This document shows, piece after piece, positions 35,037 through 42,564 of a stretch of DNA of 64,000 bases. The stretch is from Nocardioides mangrovicus. Its GTDB lineage: Bacteria > Actinomycetota > Actinomycetes > Propionibacteriales > Nocardioidaceae. The stretch lies in contig NZ_RDBE01000010.1 of the NCBI RefSeq assembly GCF_003674065.1, positions 930,809 through 994,808 on the forward strand, written 5' to 3'. The translations under genes and the position numbers were made by a program. Numbering within the stretch: position 1 is the stretch's first letter; each line of letters opens with the position of its first letter. The notes beneath the pieces are model-generated. The model was not told the DNA's origin. It searched no databases and worked only from the letters and a program-made list of their open reading frames with translations.

Positions 35037-36282
35037 GATCCGCGTCGCGAACTGCTCGGGCTTCTACGGCGACCGGCTCTCGGCGATGCGCGAGATGCTC
35101 GACGGCGGCTCGCTCGACTACGTCACCGGCGACTACCTGGCCGAGCTGACGATGCTCATCCTCGGTCGCGACCGGCTCAAGGACCCCGCGCTGGGCTACG
35201 CCCGCACCTTCCTCACCCAGCTCGAGGACTGCCTGGTCGACGCCCTGGAGCGCCGCGTGCGGATCGTCAGCAACGCCGGCGGCCTCAACCCAATGGGCCT
35301 CGCCGCGCGCATCGCCGAGGTCGCCCGCCGTCTCGGCCTCTCGGCGCGGATCGCCTACGTCACGGGCGACGACGTCGTCGCGCACTTCCCCGACGCCCTC
35401 ACCGCCAACGCCTACCTCGGCGCCGCCGGCATCGCCTCCGCGCTGGGTCAGGGCGCCGACGTCGTCGTGACGGGGCGGGTCACCGACGCCTCCCTCCTGG
35501 TCGGGCCGGCGGTGGCGACCTACGGCTGGCAGGCCTCGCAGTACGACGCACTGGCCGGTGCGGTGGTGGCCGGCCACGTGATCGAGTGCGGGGCGCAGGC
35601 CTGTGGCGGCAACTTCTCCGGCTTCGCCGACCTGCCTCGCTCCCGCCCGATCGGCTTCCCGATCGCCGAGGTCGCCGAGGACGGCTCGTCGGTCATCACC
35701 AAGCACGAAGGGACCGGGGGAGCGGTCACCGTCGACACCGTCACCGCCCAGCTGCTGTACGAGATCCAGGGCCCGACCTACCTCAACCCCGACGTGGCCG
35801 TCGACCTGACCTCGGTCCGGCTCACCCAGGACGGCCCCGACCGGGTGCGCATCCACGGCGTCCGGGGCAGCGAGCCGCCCCAGCGGTTGAAGGTCTCGGT
35901 GAACCGGCTGGGTGGTCACCGCAACAGCGTCGAGTTCGTCCTCACCGGGCTCGACGTCGCGCGGAAGGCGGCCTGGGTGCGCGAGCAGCTGGAGGCGCTG
36001 CTCGACCCGCGGCCGGCGCTGGTCGAGTGGACCCTGGACCGGCTGCCCGGGCCCGACGCCGAGACCGAGGAGGCGGCCTCGTGCCGGCTGCGGCTCACGG
36101 TGCAGGACCCCTCGGCCGAGGTGGTCGGCCGGCAGGTCTCCAGCGCGGCCGTCGAGCTCGCGCTGGCCTCCTACCCCGGGTTGAGCCTGACTGCGCCGCC
36201 CGGCCGCGGCGCGCCGTTCGGGGTCTACGAGGCGGGCTGGGTCGACCGGGCGGACGTCGGTGAGGAGGTGGGCTTCGGATGA
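34999..36282 (+). CDS. AtuA-like acyclic terpene utilisation protein, N-terminal (DUF1446) part
   Basis: 427 residues. It begins with a repeat-derived leader (about 12 residues), then the conserved '[21 protein letters not shown]', '[16 protein letters not shown]', '[16 protein letters not shown]', '[20 protein letters not shown]' and '[17 protein letters not shown]'. These are hallmarks of AtuA/DUF1446. No other in-frame start precedes the conserved block, so the GTG inside the repeat must be used. AtuA is needed for citronellol/geraniol degradation in Pseudomonas, but its reaction is unclear. The C-terminal domain is encoded separately by the next gene (ATGA overlap). Confidence 0.9.
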
Positions 36283-37684: not shown

Positions 37685-37733
37685 GCAGCGACCACGACTG
37701 AGGAACGAAGTCGTGACGGAGCGTGTCGAAACC
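37674..37733. repeat. Dispersed GGTTGAG...CGAAACC repeat, copy 2
   Basis: It shares ACGGTGGTTGAGCAGCGA with copy 1, contains an internal hairpin (CACGACT and AGTCGTG arms) and ends GTGTCGAAACC. It supplies the last codons and stop of the truncated acyl-CoA dehydrogenase (TGA 37682-37684). It ends 25 bases before the carboxylase GTG. Confidence 0.78.
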
Positions 37734-37758
37734 CCTGAAGCGGAGAGGAGGCGGTGAG

Positions 37759-39333
37759 GTGACCAACCGTCTGGTCATGCTCGAGAAGCTCGAGTCGCTC
37801 GAGGCCGAGAACGCCAAGGCCGTCGCCGGCGGCGGGGAGCGCTACGTCGAGCGGCACCACGCCCGCGGCAAGCTCCTGCCGCGCGAGCGCATCGAGCTGC
37901 TCATCGACGAGGGGTCGGCGTTCCTGGAGCTCTCGCCGCTGGCCGGCTGGGGCACGGACTTCGTCGTCGGCGCCTCGCTGGTCACCGGCGTCGGCGTCGT
38001 CGAGGGCGTCCAGAGCGTGATCGTCGCCAACGACCCGACGGTCAAGGGCGGCGCGAGCAACCCCTGGACCGTGCGCAAGAGCTTCCGCGCCCACCAGATC
38101 GCCGCGGAGAACCGGCTGCCGGTGATCGCGCTGGTGGAGTCCGGTGGCGCCGACCTGCCCACCCAGAAGGAGATCTTCATCCCGGGTGGCAAGACGTTCC
38201 GCGACATCACGCGGCACAGCGCGGCCAAGATCCCCACCATCGCGCTGGTCTTCGGCAACTCCACCGCGGGCGGGGCCTACATCCCCGGGATGAGCGACTA
38301 CACCGTGATGGTCAAGGAGCAGGCCAAGGTGTTCCTCGGTGGCCCGCCGCTGGTGAGGATGGCCACCGGCGAGGAGTCCGACGACGAGTCCCTGGGCGGC
38401 GCCGAGATGCACGCCCGCACCTCCGGGCTGGCCGACTACCTCGCCGCCGACGAGCGCGACGCGATCCGCATCGGCCGCCGGATCGTGGCCCGGCTGACGT
38501 CATACGCCCCGGCGGTTCCGACGACCACCTCGTATGACGTTGCTGAGCCTGACGCCGACCCCGAGGAGCTGCTCGACCTCATCCCGGCCGACCTCAAGGA
38601 GCCGTTCGACCCGCGGGAGGTCGTCGCGCGCATCTGCGACGGAGTCAGCGCGTCGAACGGTGCCGTCTTCGACGAGTTCAAGCCGCTCTACGGTCCCTCG
38701 CTGGTCACCGGATGGGCACGGATCCACGGCCACCCGGTGGGGATCTTGGCCAACGCCCAGGGGGTGCTGTTCAGCCAGGAGGCCCAGAAGGCCACGCAGT
38801 TCATCCAGCTGGCCAACCAGGTCGACACCCCGCTGCTGTTCCTGCACAACACCACCGGCTACATGGTCGGCGCGGAGTACGAGCAGGGCGGGATCATCCG
38901 CCACGGCGCGCAGATGATCAACGCCGTCAGCAACTCCTCGGTGCCCCACCTGGCGGTGATCATGGGCGCCTCCTACGGCGCCGGCAACTACGGCATGAAC
39001 GGCCGCGCCTACGACCCGCGGTTCCTGTTCACCTGGCCCTCGGCCAAGTCCGCGGTGATGGGGCCGGCGCAGCTGGCCGGCGTCATGGAGATCGTGGCGC
39101 GCCAGTCCGCGGAGTCGAAGGGGCAGACCTTCGACGCGGCCGAGTTCGCCGGGATCAAGCAGCTGGTGGAGAGCCAGATCGAGGAGCAGAGCCTGCCCTA
39201 CTTCCTGTCCGGGATGCTCTACGACGACGGCGTCATCGACCCCCGCGACACCCGGACCGTGCTCGGCATCTGCCTCTCGGTGATCGCGCAGTCGTCGTGG
39301 ACAGGCGGCGCGGGCTACGGGGTGTTCAGATGA
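37759..39333 (+). CDS. Acyl-CoA carboxylase, carboxyltransferase (beta) subunit
   Basis: 524 residues from the GTG at 37759 (GAGGAGG, seven bases upstream). A longer frame from 37723 starts inside the repeat and is rejected. Both crotonase-like halves are present: the N-half 'RGKLLPRERIELLIDEGSAF' and 'SGGADLPTQKEIF', and the C-half 'HNTTGYMVGAEYEQGGIIRHGAQMINAV' and 'GASYGAGNYGMNGRAYDPRF'. The QEIF/GYMVG types are those of methylcrotonyl-/geranyl-CoA carboxylases (MccB/LiuB/AtuC). It transfers CO2 from biotin to a 3-methyl-branched enoyl-CoA. Residues about 247-261 (SYAPAVPTTTSYDV) come from an inserted 44-bp palindrome in the interdomain linker. Confidence 0.93.
   Translation: MTNRLVMLEKLESLEAENAKAVAGGGERYVERHHARGKLLPRERIELLIDEGSAFLELSPLAGWGTDFVVGASLVTGVGVVEGVQSVIVANDPTVKGGASNPWTVRKSFRAHQIAAENRLPVIALVESGGADLPTQKEIFIPGGKTFRDITRHSAAKIPTIALVFGNSTAGGAYIPGMSDYTVMVKEQAKVFLGGPPLVRMATGEESDDESLGGAEMHARTSGLADYLAADERDAIRIGRRIVARLTSYAPAVPTTTSYDVAEPDADPEELLDLIPADLKEPFDPREVVARICDGVSASNGAVFDEFKPLYGPSLVTGWARIHGHPVGILANAQGVLFSQEAQKATQFIQLANQVDTPLLFLHNTTGYMVGAEYEQGGIIRHGAQMINAVSNSSVPHLAVIMGASYGAGNYGMNGRAYDPRFLFTWPSAKSAVMGPAQLAGVMEIVARQSAESKGQTFDAAEFAGIKQLVESQIEEQSLPYFLSGMLYDDGVIDPRDTRTVLGICLSVIAQSSWTGGAGYGVFR
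38497..38540. repeat. 44-bp palindromic element inside carboxylase beta gene (copy 1)
   Basis: ACGTCATACG (38497-38506) and CGTATGACGT (38531-38540) are perfect arms around 24 bases. It is the same length as copy 2 at 40878. The last 20 bases of the two copies differ at one position. It is read in the same frame in both genes (TSY...TTTSYDV). Confidence 0.8.
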
Positions 39334-41210
39334 TTCGCCGGTTGCTGGTCGCCAACCGCGGCGAGATCGCCTCACGGGTCTTCCGCACCTGCCGCTCGCT
39401 CGGCATCTCGACCGTCGCCGTCCACTCCGACCCCGACGCCGCGCTGCCCTACGTCGCCGAGGCCGACCACGCCGTCCGGCTGCCGGGCGCCGCACCGGCC
39501 GAGACGTACCTGCGCGCCGACCTCCTCATCGACGCCGCGCGCCGTTCCGGCGCCGACGCGGTGCACCCCGGCTACGGGTTCCTCTCCGAGAGCGCTGAGT
39601 TCGCGCAGGCGGTGATCGACGCCGGGCTCACCTGGGTCGGGCCACCGCCGTCGGCCATCGAGGCCATGGGCTCGAAGGTGGGCGCCAAGGAGCTGATGCG
39701 GGCCGCCGGTGTGCCGGTGCTCGACGCCGTCGAGGGGGAGTTCCCGGTGCTGGTCAAGGCCTCGGCAGGCGGCGGCGGGCGTGGGATGCGGATCGTCCGC
39801 TCGGCCTCGTCGATGGAGGCGGAGCTGGCGGCGGCGCGGGCCGAGGCGGAGTCGGCCTTCGGCGACGGCACGGTCTTCGTGGAGCCCTACGTCGAGCGTG
39901 GGCGTCACGTGGAGGTGCAGGTCTGGGGCGACGCCGGCGGGAACCTCTCCGTGCTGGGCAGCCGGGACTGCTCGGTGCAGCGCCGGCACCAGAAGGTGAT
40001 CGAGGAGGCGCCGGCGCTCGACCTGTGGGGTGAGACCGAGCCGCAGATGTTCGGCGCGGCCCGCAGGGCCGCCGAGGCTATCGGCTACCGCGGCGTCGGC
40101 ACGGTGGAGTTCCTGTACGACGAGTCGGCCGACCGGTTCTGGTTCCTGGAGATGAACACCCGGCTTCAGGTGGAGCACCCCGTGACTGAGATGACCACCG
40201 GACTCGACCTGGTCGCGCTGCAGATCGAGTCCGCCGAGCCTTCCCGACGCGCCCTGGCGCTCGTGCCGAACCCACGCGGTCACGCCATCGAGGTCCGGCT
40301 CTACGCCGAGGACCCGGCCGAGGACTACCGGCCGCAGAGCGGTGTGCTGTCGGCGTTCGACATCCCGCTCGAGGACGGGGTGCGGGTCGACGCGGGGTAC
40401 GCGGCCGGCTGCGAGATCGCGACCTTCTACGACGCGATGCTGGCCAAGGTCGTCGCCCACGGGCCCGACCGCCGCTCGGCGGCGAGGAGGCTGGCCGGGG
40501 TCCTGGAGCGGGCGCGGATCCACGGGGTCCGCACCAACCGCGACCTGCTGGTGCGGGTGCTGCGCAGCGAGGAGTTCCTCGACCGGCCGCTCTCGACGGC
40601 GTTCCTCGACTCCTTCGACCTGGCCGCTCCCGCGCCCGATCCCCAGCCGTACGCGGTCGCGGCGGCGCTGGCGATCGCCTCGGCGCAGGCGGCGTCTCGC
40701 CCCACGCAGCGCGGCATCCCGGTGGGGTGGCGCAACGTGCCCAGCCAGCCGCAGCGCACCGAGTTCGAGGGCGTCGCGGTCGAGTGGTGGGGCACCCGCG
40801 ACGGCTTCGCGGTCGACGGCTACGACGTGGTCTCGGCCTCGCCGACCACGGTGACGCTGGAGCACGACGGCGTGCGGACGTCATACGAGGTGGCTGCGTC
40901 AACGACCACTTCGTATGACGTCGACGGACCCGAGGGCCACCTGCGCCTGGAGCGGAGCCCGAGGTTCGTCGACCCCGCCGATGTGGTGGCGCCCGGTTCG
41001 CTGCTGGCGCCGATGCCGGGCACCGTGGTGAGCGTGGCGGTGGCCGCCGGCGACAGCGTCGGCGCCGGGCAGCCGGTGCTGGTGCTCGAGGCGATGAAGA
41101 TGCAGCACACGGTGAGCGCGCCGGCCGACGGCGTCGTCGCACAGCTCGAGGTGGGGCCCGGGTCGCAGGTCGCGGCCGGGGAGGTACTAGCGGTGGTGGA
41201 GTCGCCATGA
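39330..41210 (+). CDS. Acyl-CoA carboxylase, biotin carboxylase/BCCP (alpha) subunit
   Basis: 626 residues. The biotin carboxylase domain (1-445) has 'LLVANRGEIASRVFRT', the Gly-rich ATP loop 'KASAGGGGRGMRIV', and 'FLEMNTRLQVEHPVTEMTTGLDLV'. A linker follows, and then the C-terminal biotinyl domain with biotin-accepting K590 in EAMKM. The architecture equals MccA/LiuD/AtuF. It overlaps the beta-subunit stop by four bases and the next dehydrogenase start likewise. Residues about 517-531 (TSYEVAASTTTSYDV) are encoded by the second 44-bp palindrome, just ahead of the biotinyl domain. It supplies carboxybiotin to the beta subunit. Confidence 0.95.
   Translation: MIRRLLVANRGEIASRVFRTCRSLGISTVAVHSDPDAALPYVAEADHAVRLPGAAPAETYLRADLLIDAARRSGADAVHPGYGFLSESAEFAQAVIDAGLTWVGPPPSAIEAMGSKVGAKELMRAAGVPVLDAVEGEFPVLVKASAGGGGRGMRIVRSASSMEAELAAARAEAESAFGDGTVFVEPYVERGRHVEVQVWGDAGGNLSVLGSRDCSVQRRHQKVIEEAPALDLWGETEPQMFGAARRAAEAIGYRGVGTVEFLYDESADRFWFLEMNTRLQVEHPVTEMTTGLDLVALQIESAEPSRRALALVPNPRGHAIEVRLYAEDPAEDYRPQSGVLSAFDIPLEDGVRVDAGYAAGCEIATFYDAMLAKVVAHGPDRRSAARRLAGVLERARIHGVRTNRDLLVRVLRSEEFLDRPLSTAFLDSFDLAAPAPDPQPYAVAAALAIASAQAASRPTQRGIPVGWRNVPSQPQRTEFEGVAVEWWGTRDGFAVDGYDVVSASPTTVTLEHDGVRTSYEVAASTTTSYDVDGPEGHLRLERSPRFVDPADVVAPGSLLAPMPGTVVSVAVAAGDSVGAGQPVLVLEAMKMQHTVSAPADGVVAQLEVGPGSQVAAGEVLAVVESP
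40878..40921. repeat. 44-bp palindromic element inside carboxylase alpha gene (copy 2)
   Basis: ACGTCATACGAGGTGG (40878-40893) and CCACTTCGTATGACGT (40906-40921) form 16-bp arms with one mismatch around a 12-base loop. The reading frame stays open and gives the same peptide motif as copy 1. Confidence 0.82.
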
Positions 41211-42370: not shown

Positions 42371-42382
42371 GGGGTGCGATCG

Positions 42383-42463
42383 CCAAAGTCGCGCACTTGC
42401 GCAGTTGTGGCCCGGACAAATCGGGCTGACCGCTGGAATTGCTGCGCAAGTGTGGAGTTGTGG
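42383..42463. repeat. 81-bp inverted-repeat element, copy A
   Basis: It begins 13 bases after the dehydrogenase stop. The left arm holds CCAAAGTCGCGCACTTGCG and the right arm CTGCGCAAGTGTGG. The 11-bp core CACTTGCGCAG pairs perfectly. It has the same length as the element at 50637-50717, and the first ~40 bases are nearly identical (shared CCAAAGTCGCGCACTTGCG, TGTGG, CGGACAAA). Confidence 0.75.
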
Positions 42464-42480
42464 GGGTCGGGTCCCGACGG

Positions 42481-42564
42481 TGCGCCAACTGCACACTTGC
42501 GAAAGACGGCGCGCCGGTTGGGGCGCGTGTGACGTGCCAGGTGCGCAAGTGTGCAGTTGGCGCA
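42481..42564. repeat. 84-bp inverted-repeat element with perfect 21-bp arms, copy B
   Basis: The arms at 42481-42501 and 42544-42564 are perfect reverse complements (core CCAACTGCACACTTGCG). It is related to copies A and C through the CACTTGCG core. The right arm ends at the ribosome site of the enoyl-CoA hydratase gene, so a hairpin would sit in its leader. Confidence 0.78.

Follow-up and report, generated by a model that had tools for sequence, protein, structure and literature searches.

A 44-bp palindromic repeat family of Nocardioidaceae and its candidate AbiEi-like/DUF559 partner nuclease

Results

Two neighbouring carboxylase genes of Nocardioides mangrovicus, located in a 64,000-nucleotide stretch of contig NZ_RDBE01000010.1 (positions 930,809 to 994,808; hereafter the window), each contain a 44-bp palindrome, and it is these palindromes, the repeat family to which they belong and a nuclease gene that accompanies the family that are analyzed here. 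The features are collected in Table 1. In the AccD-like protein the palindrome encodes residues 259–273, within the carboxyl-transferase domain (residues 45–524), and in the AccA-like protein it encodes residues 517–531, ahead of the biotinyl domain (residues 559–622; both domains from Pfam). A first-pass annotation had described two elements of identical length whose last 20 bases agree except at one position, and which are read in a common frame, TSY...TTTSYDV; these points, together with the positions of both elements, were verified in the window sequence. It had further described the elements as inserted into variable linkers, had proposed a mobile palindromic family that tolerates, or is selected for, open reading frames, and had suggested a genome-wide count, an alignment with orthologues and a check of the reading frame.

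Table 1. Features of the window discussed in the text
Feature	Position	Strand	Remark
44-bp palindromic element, AccD-like gene copy	38497..38540	.	Translated as TSYAPAVPTTTSYDV
44-bp palindromic element, AccA-like gene copy	40878..40921	.	Translated as TSYEVAASTTTSYDV
Host gene, carboxyl transferase subunit (Carboxyl_trans, PF01039)	37723..39333	+	Pfam domain
Host gene, biotin carboxylase/biotinyl subunit, methylcrotonyl-CoA carboxylase alpha-like	39330..41210	+	
Second palindromic repeat family copies	42377..42564	.	Arm TGCGCAAGTGTGCAGTT; 3 of 32 genome hits here

The genome-wide count revealed a dispersed family of fixed length. Perfect 10-nt arms, searched for with permitted gaps of 0–30, occur in 23 copies in the N. 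mangrovicus genome (G000; 4,108,260 bases in 23 contigs), all exactly 44 bp long, and allowing up to three arm mismatches raises the count to 33 copies of 44 bp, against none for the reversed-pattern control. The common shape is ACGTCATACG-NNNN-GGTCGC-NNNN-GCGACC-NNNN-CGTATGACGT, in which the end bases GTCAT and ATGAC are invariant in all 33 copies. Pairing along the stem holds in 88.3% of cells over the 33 copies, compared with 18–49% when the partners are slid, and stem positions 11–14 covary, with both sides altered in 33 of 34 changed cells. High pairing and covariation thus indicate that the whole palindrome is maintained, beyond its two arms, and together with the copy number and the empty control they rule out chance palindromes. 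Rfam gave no matches at its gathering thresholds between positions 36000 and 43000 of the window, so no structured RNA family was recognized there.

Copies were present in 12 of the 24 genomes of the genus (up to two mismatches). Across the Nocardioidaceae, a slightly degenerate pattern with at most one mismatch detected the family in 167 of 341 genomes, whereas the reversed pattern was detected in two. An exact-arm scan of contigs returned at least 109 stretches with a palindrome; among the 80 listed, nearly all are from Nocardioides or Marmoricola, accompanied by Mumia quercus, Aeromicrobium phragmitis and one further actinomycete. Where copies stand in arrays, the start-to-start spacing of 56 unique neighboring pairs clusters at 52 (19 pairs), 62–63 (24), 72–73 (5) and 83–85 nt (3), with 5 others; 51 of the 56 fit steps of about 10.5 bp (for example in L198, L201, L226 and L311), bearing in mind that the pairs are partly dependent through tandem duplication. 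This stepping suggests that proteins bound to adjacent copies would share one face of the DNA. The same feature could be expected if the palindromes were binding sites for chromosome organization or gene control, spread by recombination and selection, with the nuclease described below acting as a regulator or in repair, under the control of its own sites; the resemblance of the N-terminal half of that protein to a DNA-binding antitoxin would also suit such a role. We consider this very unlikely, because the distribution is patchy (0 to 112 copies per genome in the family, 0 to 47 in the genus) and because copies lie in unrelated coding sequences, both of which are easier to reconcile with selfish spread than with a conserved role.

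A simple coding score places 7 of the 33 copies within genes and the remaining 26 outside, and the family is therefore not mainly intragenic. Six of the in-gene copies sit in clear Pfam-domain proteins of the same genome: AccD, AccA, a PhzE-like enzyme, an FAD/Fe-S oxidoreductase, AllH and a 2-oxoacid dehydrogenase E2. The AccD genes of N. soli (L157) and of two further genomes (L233 of G008 and L235 of G013) likewise have their own version of the 44-mer in this linker, read in the same frame, and all nine in-gene copies (these three and the six above) use the frame TSY...SYDV, one of two open frames of the 44-mer; the third frame is stopped by a TGA in the right arm. The variable AccD linker, as seen in the window and in L157, L233 and L235, is a recurrent, tolerated landing place for each species' own palindromes.

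Alignment with orthologues upheld the placement in variable linkers but not the insertion. The AccD linker measures 14 residues here and 11–54 in 19 copy-free orthologues (a count that omits L240, of which the sequence is incomplete), and 18, 25 and 25 residues in the other palindrome carriers; the corresponding AccA stretch measures 15 residues here and 14–20 in 22 orthologues. The PhzE-like copy accounts for about four additional residues relative to its sole close homologue in the Protein Data Bank, 3r74. A clean 15-residue insertion is ruled out by these comparisons, and, as the linker lengths fall within the range of the orthologues, the copy stands in for native linker sequence. This could result from an insertion that was later trimmed or from copying that itself overwrites what was there. 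The palindromes of the carboxylase genes are ordinary family members tolerated in variable linkers.

The partner gene came to light between palindromes. Seven loci contain palindrome pairs 0.9–1.3 kb apart, and in six of them a nuclease gene lies between; four such pairs that were opened, at different places, all hold members of one gene family, 314–353 residues long. The typical product comprises about 315 residues, with an AbiEi-like N-terminus and a DUF559/Vsr-like C-terminus. Against the Pfam DUF559 model (PF04480, cut-off 20.6 bits), the four proteins score 26.0 (L056), 28.6 (L115), 16.7 (L103) and 15.3 bits (L138), and with hhalign 74 columns of their C-terminal part match 12 YcjD-like DUF559 proteins at 96.5%. 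At E values up to 0.1 their Pfam matches comprise DUF559, AbiEi, PvuRts1I-like and MTES_1575 models, with no Y1_Tnp (HUH) domain among them. Across six sequences a D, an E-x-D-G and an H-H are invariant; EDxHD is the name of the motif of Vsr-like homing endonucleases. In L150, L269, L273, L274, L276 and L277 the nuclease gene runs into the downstream palindrome and takes its stop codon, TGA, from the right arm.

The N-terminal half of a structural model (pLDDT 77.9, six sequences) resembles the AbiEi antitoxin 6y8q (Foldseek E = 1.3e-5) and, weakly, Rv2827c. PADLOC, applied to two of the proteins, returned AbiEi (E = 6e-8 and 3e-9) and a methyl-directed restriction enzyme (E = 4e-3 and 2e-7). 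Such matches would suit an anti-phage or toxin-antitoxin component of the AbiEi/DUF559 kind, for which the palindromes serve as operators or self-recognition sites. However, AbiEi_4 is found at the N-terminus of two of the four proteins at 16.1 and 18.4 bits, under the curated cut-off of 25, so that AbiEi membership fails by Pfam and the label reflects the fold and PADLOC matches, and an operator role leaves dozens of distant copies, some in housekeeping genes, unexplained. We regard a defense function of this kind as extremely improbable.

Bracketing of the nuclease gene by the repeat was tested in differently selected loci. In the palindrome-selected ones, each of the 12 nuclease homologues has a palindrome at a distance of at most about 225 nt. 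Among the 30 best loci by protein profile, at least one flanking palindrome is present in 30 and palindromes on both sides in 23; after removal of four profile members that had been chosen by palindrome (L198, L199, L200 and L202), the counts are 26 of 26 and 19 of 26. Up to 5 mismatches in the 20 arm bases were accepted, most having 0–2, and the bracketing palindromes are complete 44-mers, not halves. A further 20 loci, 11 of them from pattern-negative genomes, yielded a palindrome in 13, some at 4–5 mismatches. A motif-free test of the flanks, which asks for a shared repeat scoring above 100 shuffles, was passed by 25 of 29 loci (the truncated L210 left aside); leaving out the four profile members as well gives 21 of 25. 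In the Nocardioidaceae, this nuclease family is almost certainly bracketed by matched palindromes.

The two partners also occur together. The profile search, in which six candidates per genome were scored, found the nuclease in 117 of the 341 genomes at E ≤ 1e-60, as a single copy in 103 and as two or three copies in 14. Both partners were present in 106 genomes, palindromes only in 61, the nuclease only in 11 and neither in 163, such that palindromes accompany 106 of 117 nuclease genomes versus 61 of 224 nuclease-free ones (odds ratio 25.7, p = 5e-31, by a statistic that ignores kinship). The median number of palindromes is 8 with the nuclease and 0 without it, and the co-occurrence also holds within each of the three genera tested (g1, g2 and g18). 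By similarity of the flanks, the nuclease gene occupies 22 contexts among 50 loci, a count that divergence can inflate.

Repeat and nuclease change jointly between lineages. The palindromes of genomes G025 and G071 have ACGTCATCC.. ends and those of G251 have ACGTCATCAG.. ends; in all three the inner arm bases have changed and ACGTCAT...ATGACGT is retained. A search of 396 genomes across the phylum gave, besides the N. mangrovicus genome itself, six genes at E ≤ 1e-40 in three genomes of other families (one in G425, two in G544 and three in G646). All six except L336 have a repeat common to both flanks that scores above 200 shuffles, and these five repeats differ from one another and from the Nocardioidaceae palindrome; four of the five have a clear hairpin in both flanks. 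This joint change bears on the idea that the gene is a homing-type parasite, which cuts palindromes that spread by other means and places its own copy beside or between them. Most genomes with the gene (103 of 117) indeed have it once, in contrast to the many palindromes; it occupies numerous contexts, and tandem palindromes would offer ready landing sites. That relatives carry quite different palindromes and change together with them, that the median palindrome number in nuclease-free genomes is 0, and that the bracketing copies are full 44-mers instead of halves nevertheless make such parasitism unlikely.

The first-pass annotation had overlooked the partner nuclease gene and also a second repeat family of the window. 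The arm of the latter (TGCGCAAGTGTGCAGTT) has 32 matches in the genome at up to two mismatches (control 0), and its copies in the window are flanked by genes resembling an acyl-CoA dehydrogenase and an enoyl-CoA hydratase (identities from sequence alone). A second DUF559 gene of the genome (L280, G000:C19:218522) is flanked on both sides by repeats of this second family, as judged by similarity and by eye, while the other two (L279 and L281) showed no shared flanks in a crude test with guessed gene ends. A further repeat-like stretch, CGACCACGACTGAGGAACGAAGTCGTGACGGAGCGTGTCGAAACC, was seen in the window at about 37690–37750; the AccD linker of L247 contains a similar stretch, GGTTTCGACAGGCTCAACCACC, and L241 has another one.

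DUF559 genes from other phyla were collected by tblastn with YcjD of Escherichia coli, which gave 43 records of a plasmid collection; 16 of these and the E. coli gene were examined. Flanks were measured from the conserved core, since some of the repeats fall inside over-long open reading frames. In 11 of the 17 loci, some of them close kin (L290 and L298), the two flanks have a repeat in common that outscores all 200 shuffles and the same-locus controls, in most cases with hairpins. The borderline L292 was left uncounted, as was L296, for which paralogous coding sequence explained the flank match. Of 1968 windows in six 50-kb control stretches taken from these replicons, 6 reached the observed score (five in Picosynechococcus and one in Pseudanabaena). 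The repeats differ from the CGTC kind discussed below. Some DUF559 genes sit within clusters (L292, L294 and L296): between sufB and sufC, inside a paa cluster, and between two carboxylase genes.

Discussion

The palindromes of the carboxylase genes are best read as members of a REP-like (repetitive extragenic palindrome-like) 44-bp repeat of Nocardioidaceae with a dedicated partner, an AbiEi-like plus DUF559/Vsr-like nuclease of the PD-(D/E)XK type, that spreads them; we place the probability of this reading at about 70%. The computed evidence consists of a repeat family of fixed length whose stem covaries, the bracketing and co-occurrence of repeat and nuclease gene, their joint change between lineages and the many contexts of the gene; from it we infer that the nuclease mobilizes the palindromes. 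Of the mobile family that the first-pass annotation had proposed, the dispersal (33 copies) and the tolerance of open reading frames (6 copies in Pfam-domain proteins) are thereby borne out, and the mobility itself is carried by this inferred step. In the mechanism that we propose, the enzyme would recognize its own palindrome, probably in the form of an extruded hairpin or by binding as a dimer to the two ACGTCAT ends, and would cut at the palindrome or at look-alike sites; repair from another copy would then write the palindrome into the new site. Copies in genes would persist only where they are tolerated, in the harmless frame TSY...SYDV. Overwriting of this kind would account for the near-unchanged lengths of AccD, AccA and the PhzE-like protein.

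Several observations weigh against spreading by the nuclease. The genome pairs compared yielded neither an empty site nor a target duplication nor an excision product: in the close genomes G002 and G009 the arrays differ by size or copy, reflecting array turnover, and none of the sites is cleanly empty (10 of 15 G002 loci having no partner among the G009 loci compared), and at site L325 of G002, which is 76% identical to G007, the intergenic part is too diverged to read. On the target-site duplication by which miniature inverted-repeat transposable elements are judged, the compared sites accordingly gave no readable empty site. One palindrome pair, 979 nt apart in L110, has no nuclease between its members, and 7 of the 20 further nuclease loci have no flanking palindrome even at 5 mismatches. 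By the degenerate pattern, 11 nuclease genomes have no palindromes and, conversely, among the genomes that are nuclease-free at E ≤ 1e-60, 35 have at least 3 palindromes, 14 at least 10 and one has 78; some of these palindrome-rich genomes may have been missed by the six-candidate scoring and others may represent losses. A separate model of the C-terminal part (pLDDT 72.6) found no significant fold match, and for neither model was there a significant match to a nuclease fold. Among the YcjD-like loci, E. coli ycjD and those of A. brasilense, Shinella and Methylobacterium have no shared flanking repeat, and simple core motifs of the YcjD-flank repeats occurred once (in S. meliloti) in the six 50-kb stretches.

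Among known systems, the closest likeness is to the REPs and their REP-associated tyrosine transposases (RAYTs; TnpA-REP, 'REPtrons'), which, according to the text of PMC3733652 available to us, are likewise short palindromes of 20–40 bp, present in many copies per genome, mostly between genes and in tandem arrays. The repeat described here is a short, dispersed, mostly extragenic palindrome, slightly over that size range at 44 bp, and as in the REP/RAYT pair the enzyme gene is bracketed by the repeat (at least one side in 30 of the 30 best loci, both sides in 23). In contrast to REP/RAYT, the place of the Y1/HUH transposase is taken by a DUF559/Vsr-like nuclease, one half of which is AbiEi-like, and the symmetric 44-mer has no GTAG tag. 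As no HUH domain was found in the enzyme, the system is not a member of REP/RAYT; by analogy, we read the repeats as working like such a pair, served by a non-HUH nuclease.

The CGTC-tagged REPs, which include Rickettsia RPE-4 and RPE-6 and Neisseria dRS3, share the terminal CGTCAT, the palindrome and some in-gene copies, and are apparently without a dedicated transposase (Di Nocera 2013, PMC3733652); in the available text of that 2013 survey a partner enzyme is given for GTAG-type repeats only. They have an unpaired CGTC at one end, an 8–9 bp stem starting with AT and a 3-nt tail (PMC3733652), unlike the repeat described here, which has CGTC at both ends, measures 44 bp and comes with a dedicated enzyme gene. 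CGTCAT is base-paired in 32–33 of the 33 copies at each position, and the paired CGTC at both ends excludes membership. Like the palindromic elements of Rickettsia (PMC3733652, in the text available), the family contributes in-frame palindromic repeats to unrelated proteins; it differs from them in sequence and, in the three proteins tested, its copies replace linker sequence and do not lengthen it. The main text of PMC3733652 mentions neither Nocardioides nor Actinobacteria.

The C-terminal domain of the partner is homologous to YcjD-like DUF559 proteins, the group of VsrA of Caulobacter, which has been proposed as a T:G mismatch repair enzyme (PMC12907096, from the portion available). That portion links VsrA to no palindromic repeats ('palindrom' has 0 occurrences), no literature joining DUF559 to REP, RAYT or palindromic repeats was found among the matches listed, and those listed for ycjD with boxC, which may be the repeat of E. 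coli, held nothing relevant. A broader proposal is that DUF559/Vsr-like nucleases form a second, HUH-independent class of REP-spreading enzymes across Actinomycetota, Pseudomonadota, Cyanobacteriota and Deinococcota, each specific for its palindrome and acting by cuts at look-alike sites that repair then overwrites, so that reading frames would be kept without net insertion. Outside the actinobacteria the support consists of the bracketing, and we therefore weigh this cross-phyla extension lower, as a tentative idea with somewhat less than an even chance.

How short bacterial palindromes spread is a long-standing question, for which the bracketed nuclease offers a concrete and easily tested candidate; the second such gene with a second repeat in the same genome adds to it. 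Repeat copies bracketing a dedicated nuclease gene may mark an unrecognized kind of repeat-spreading enzyme and, if this is true, DUF559 genes would gain a biological context.

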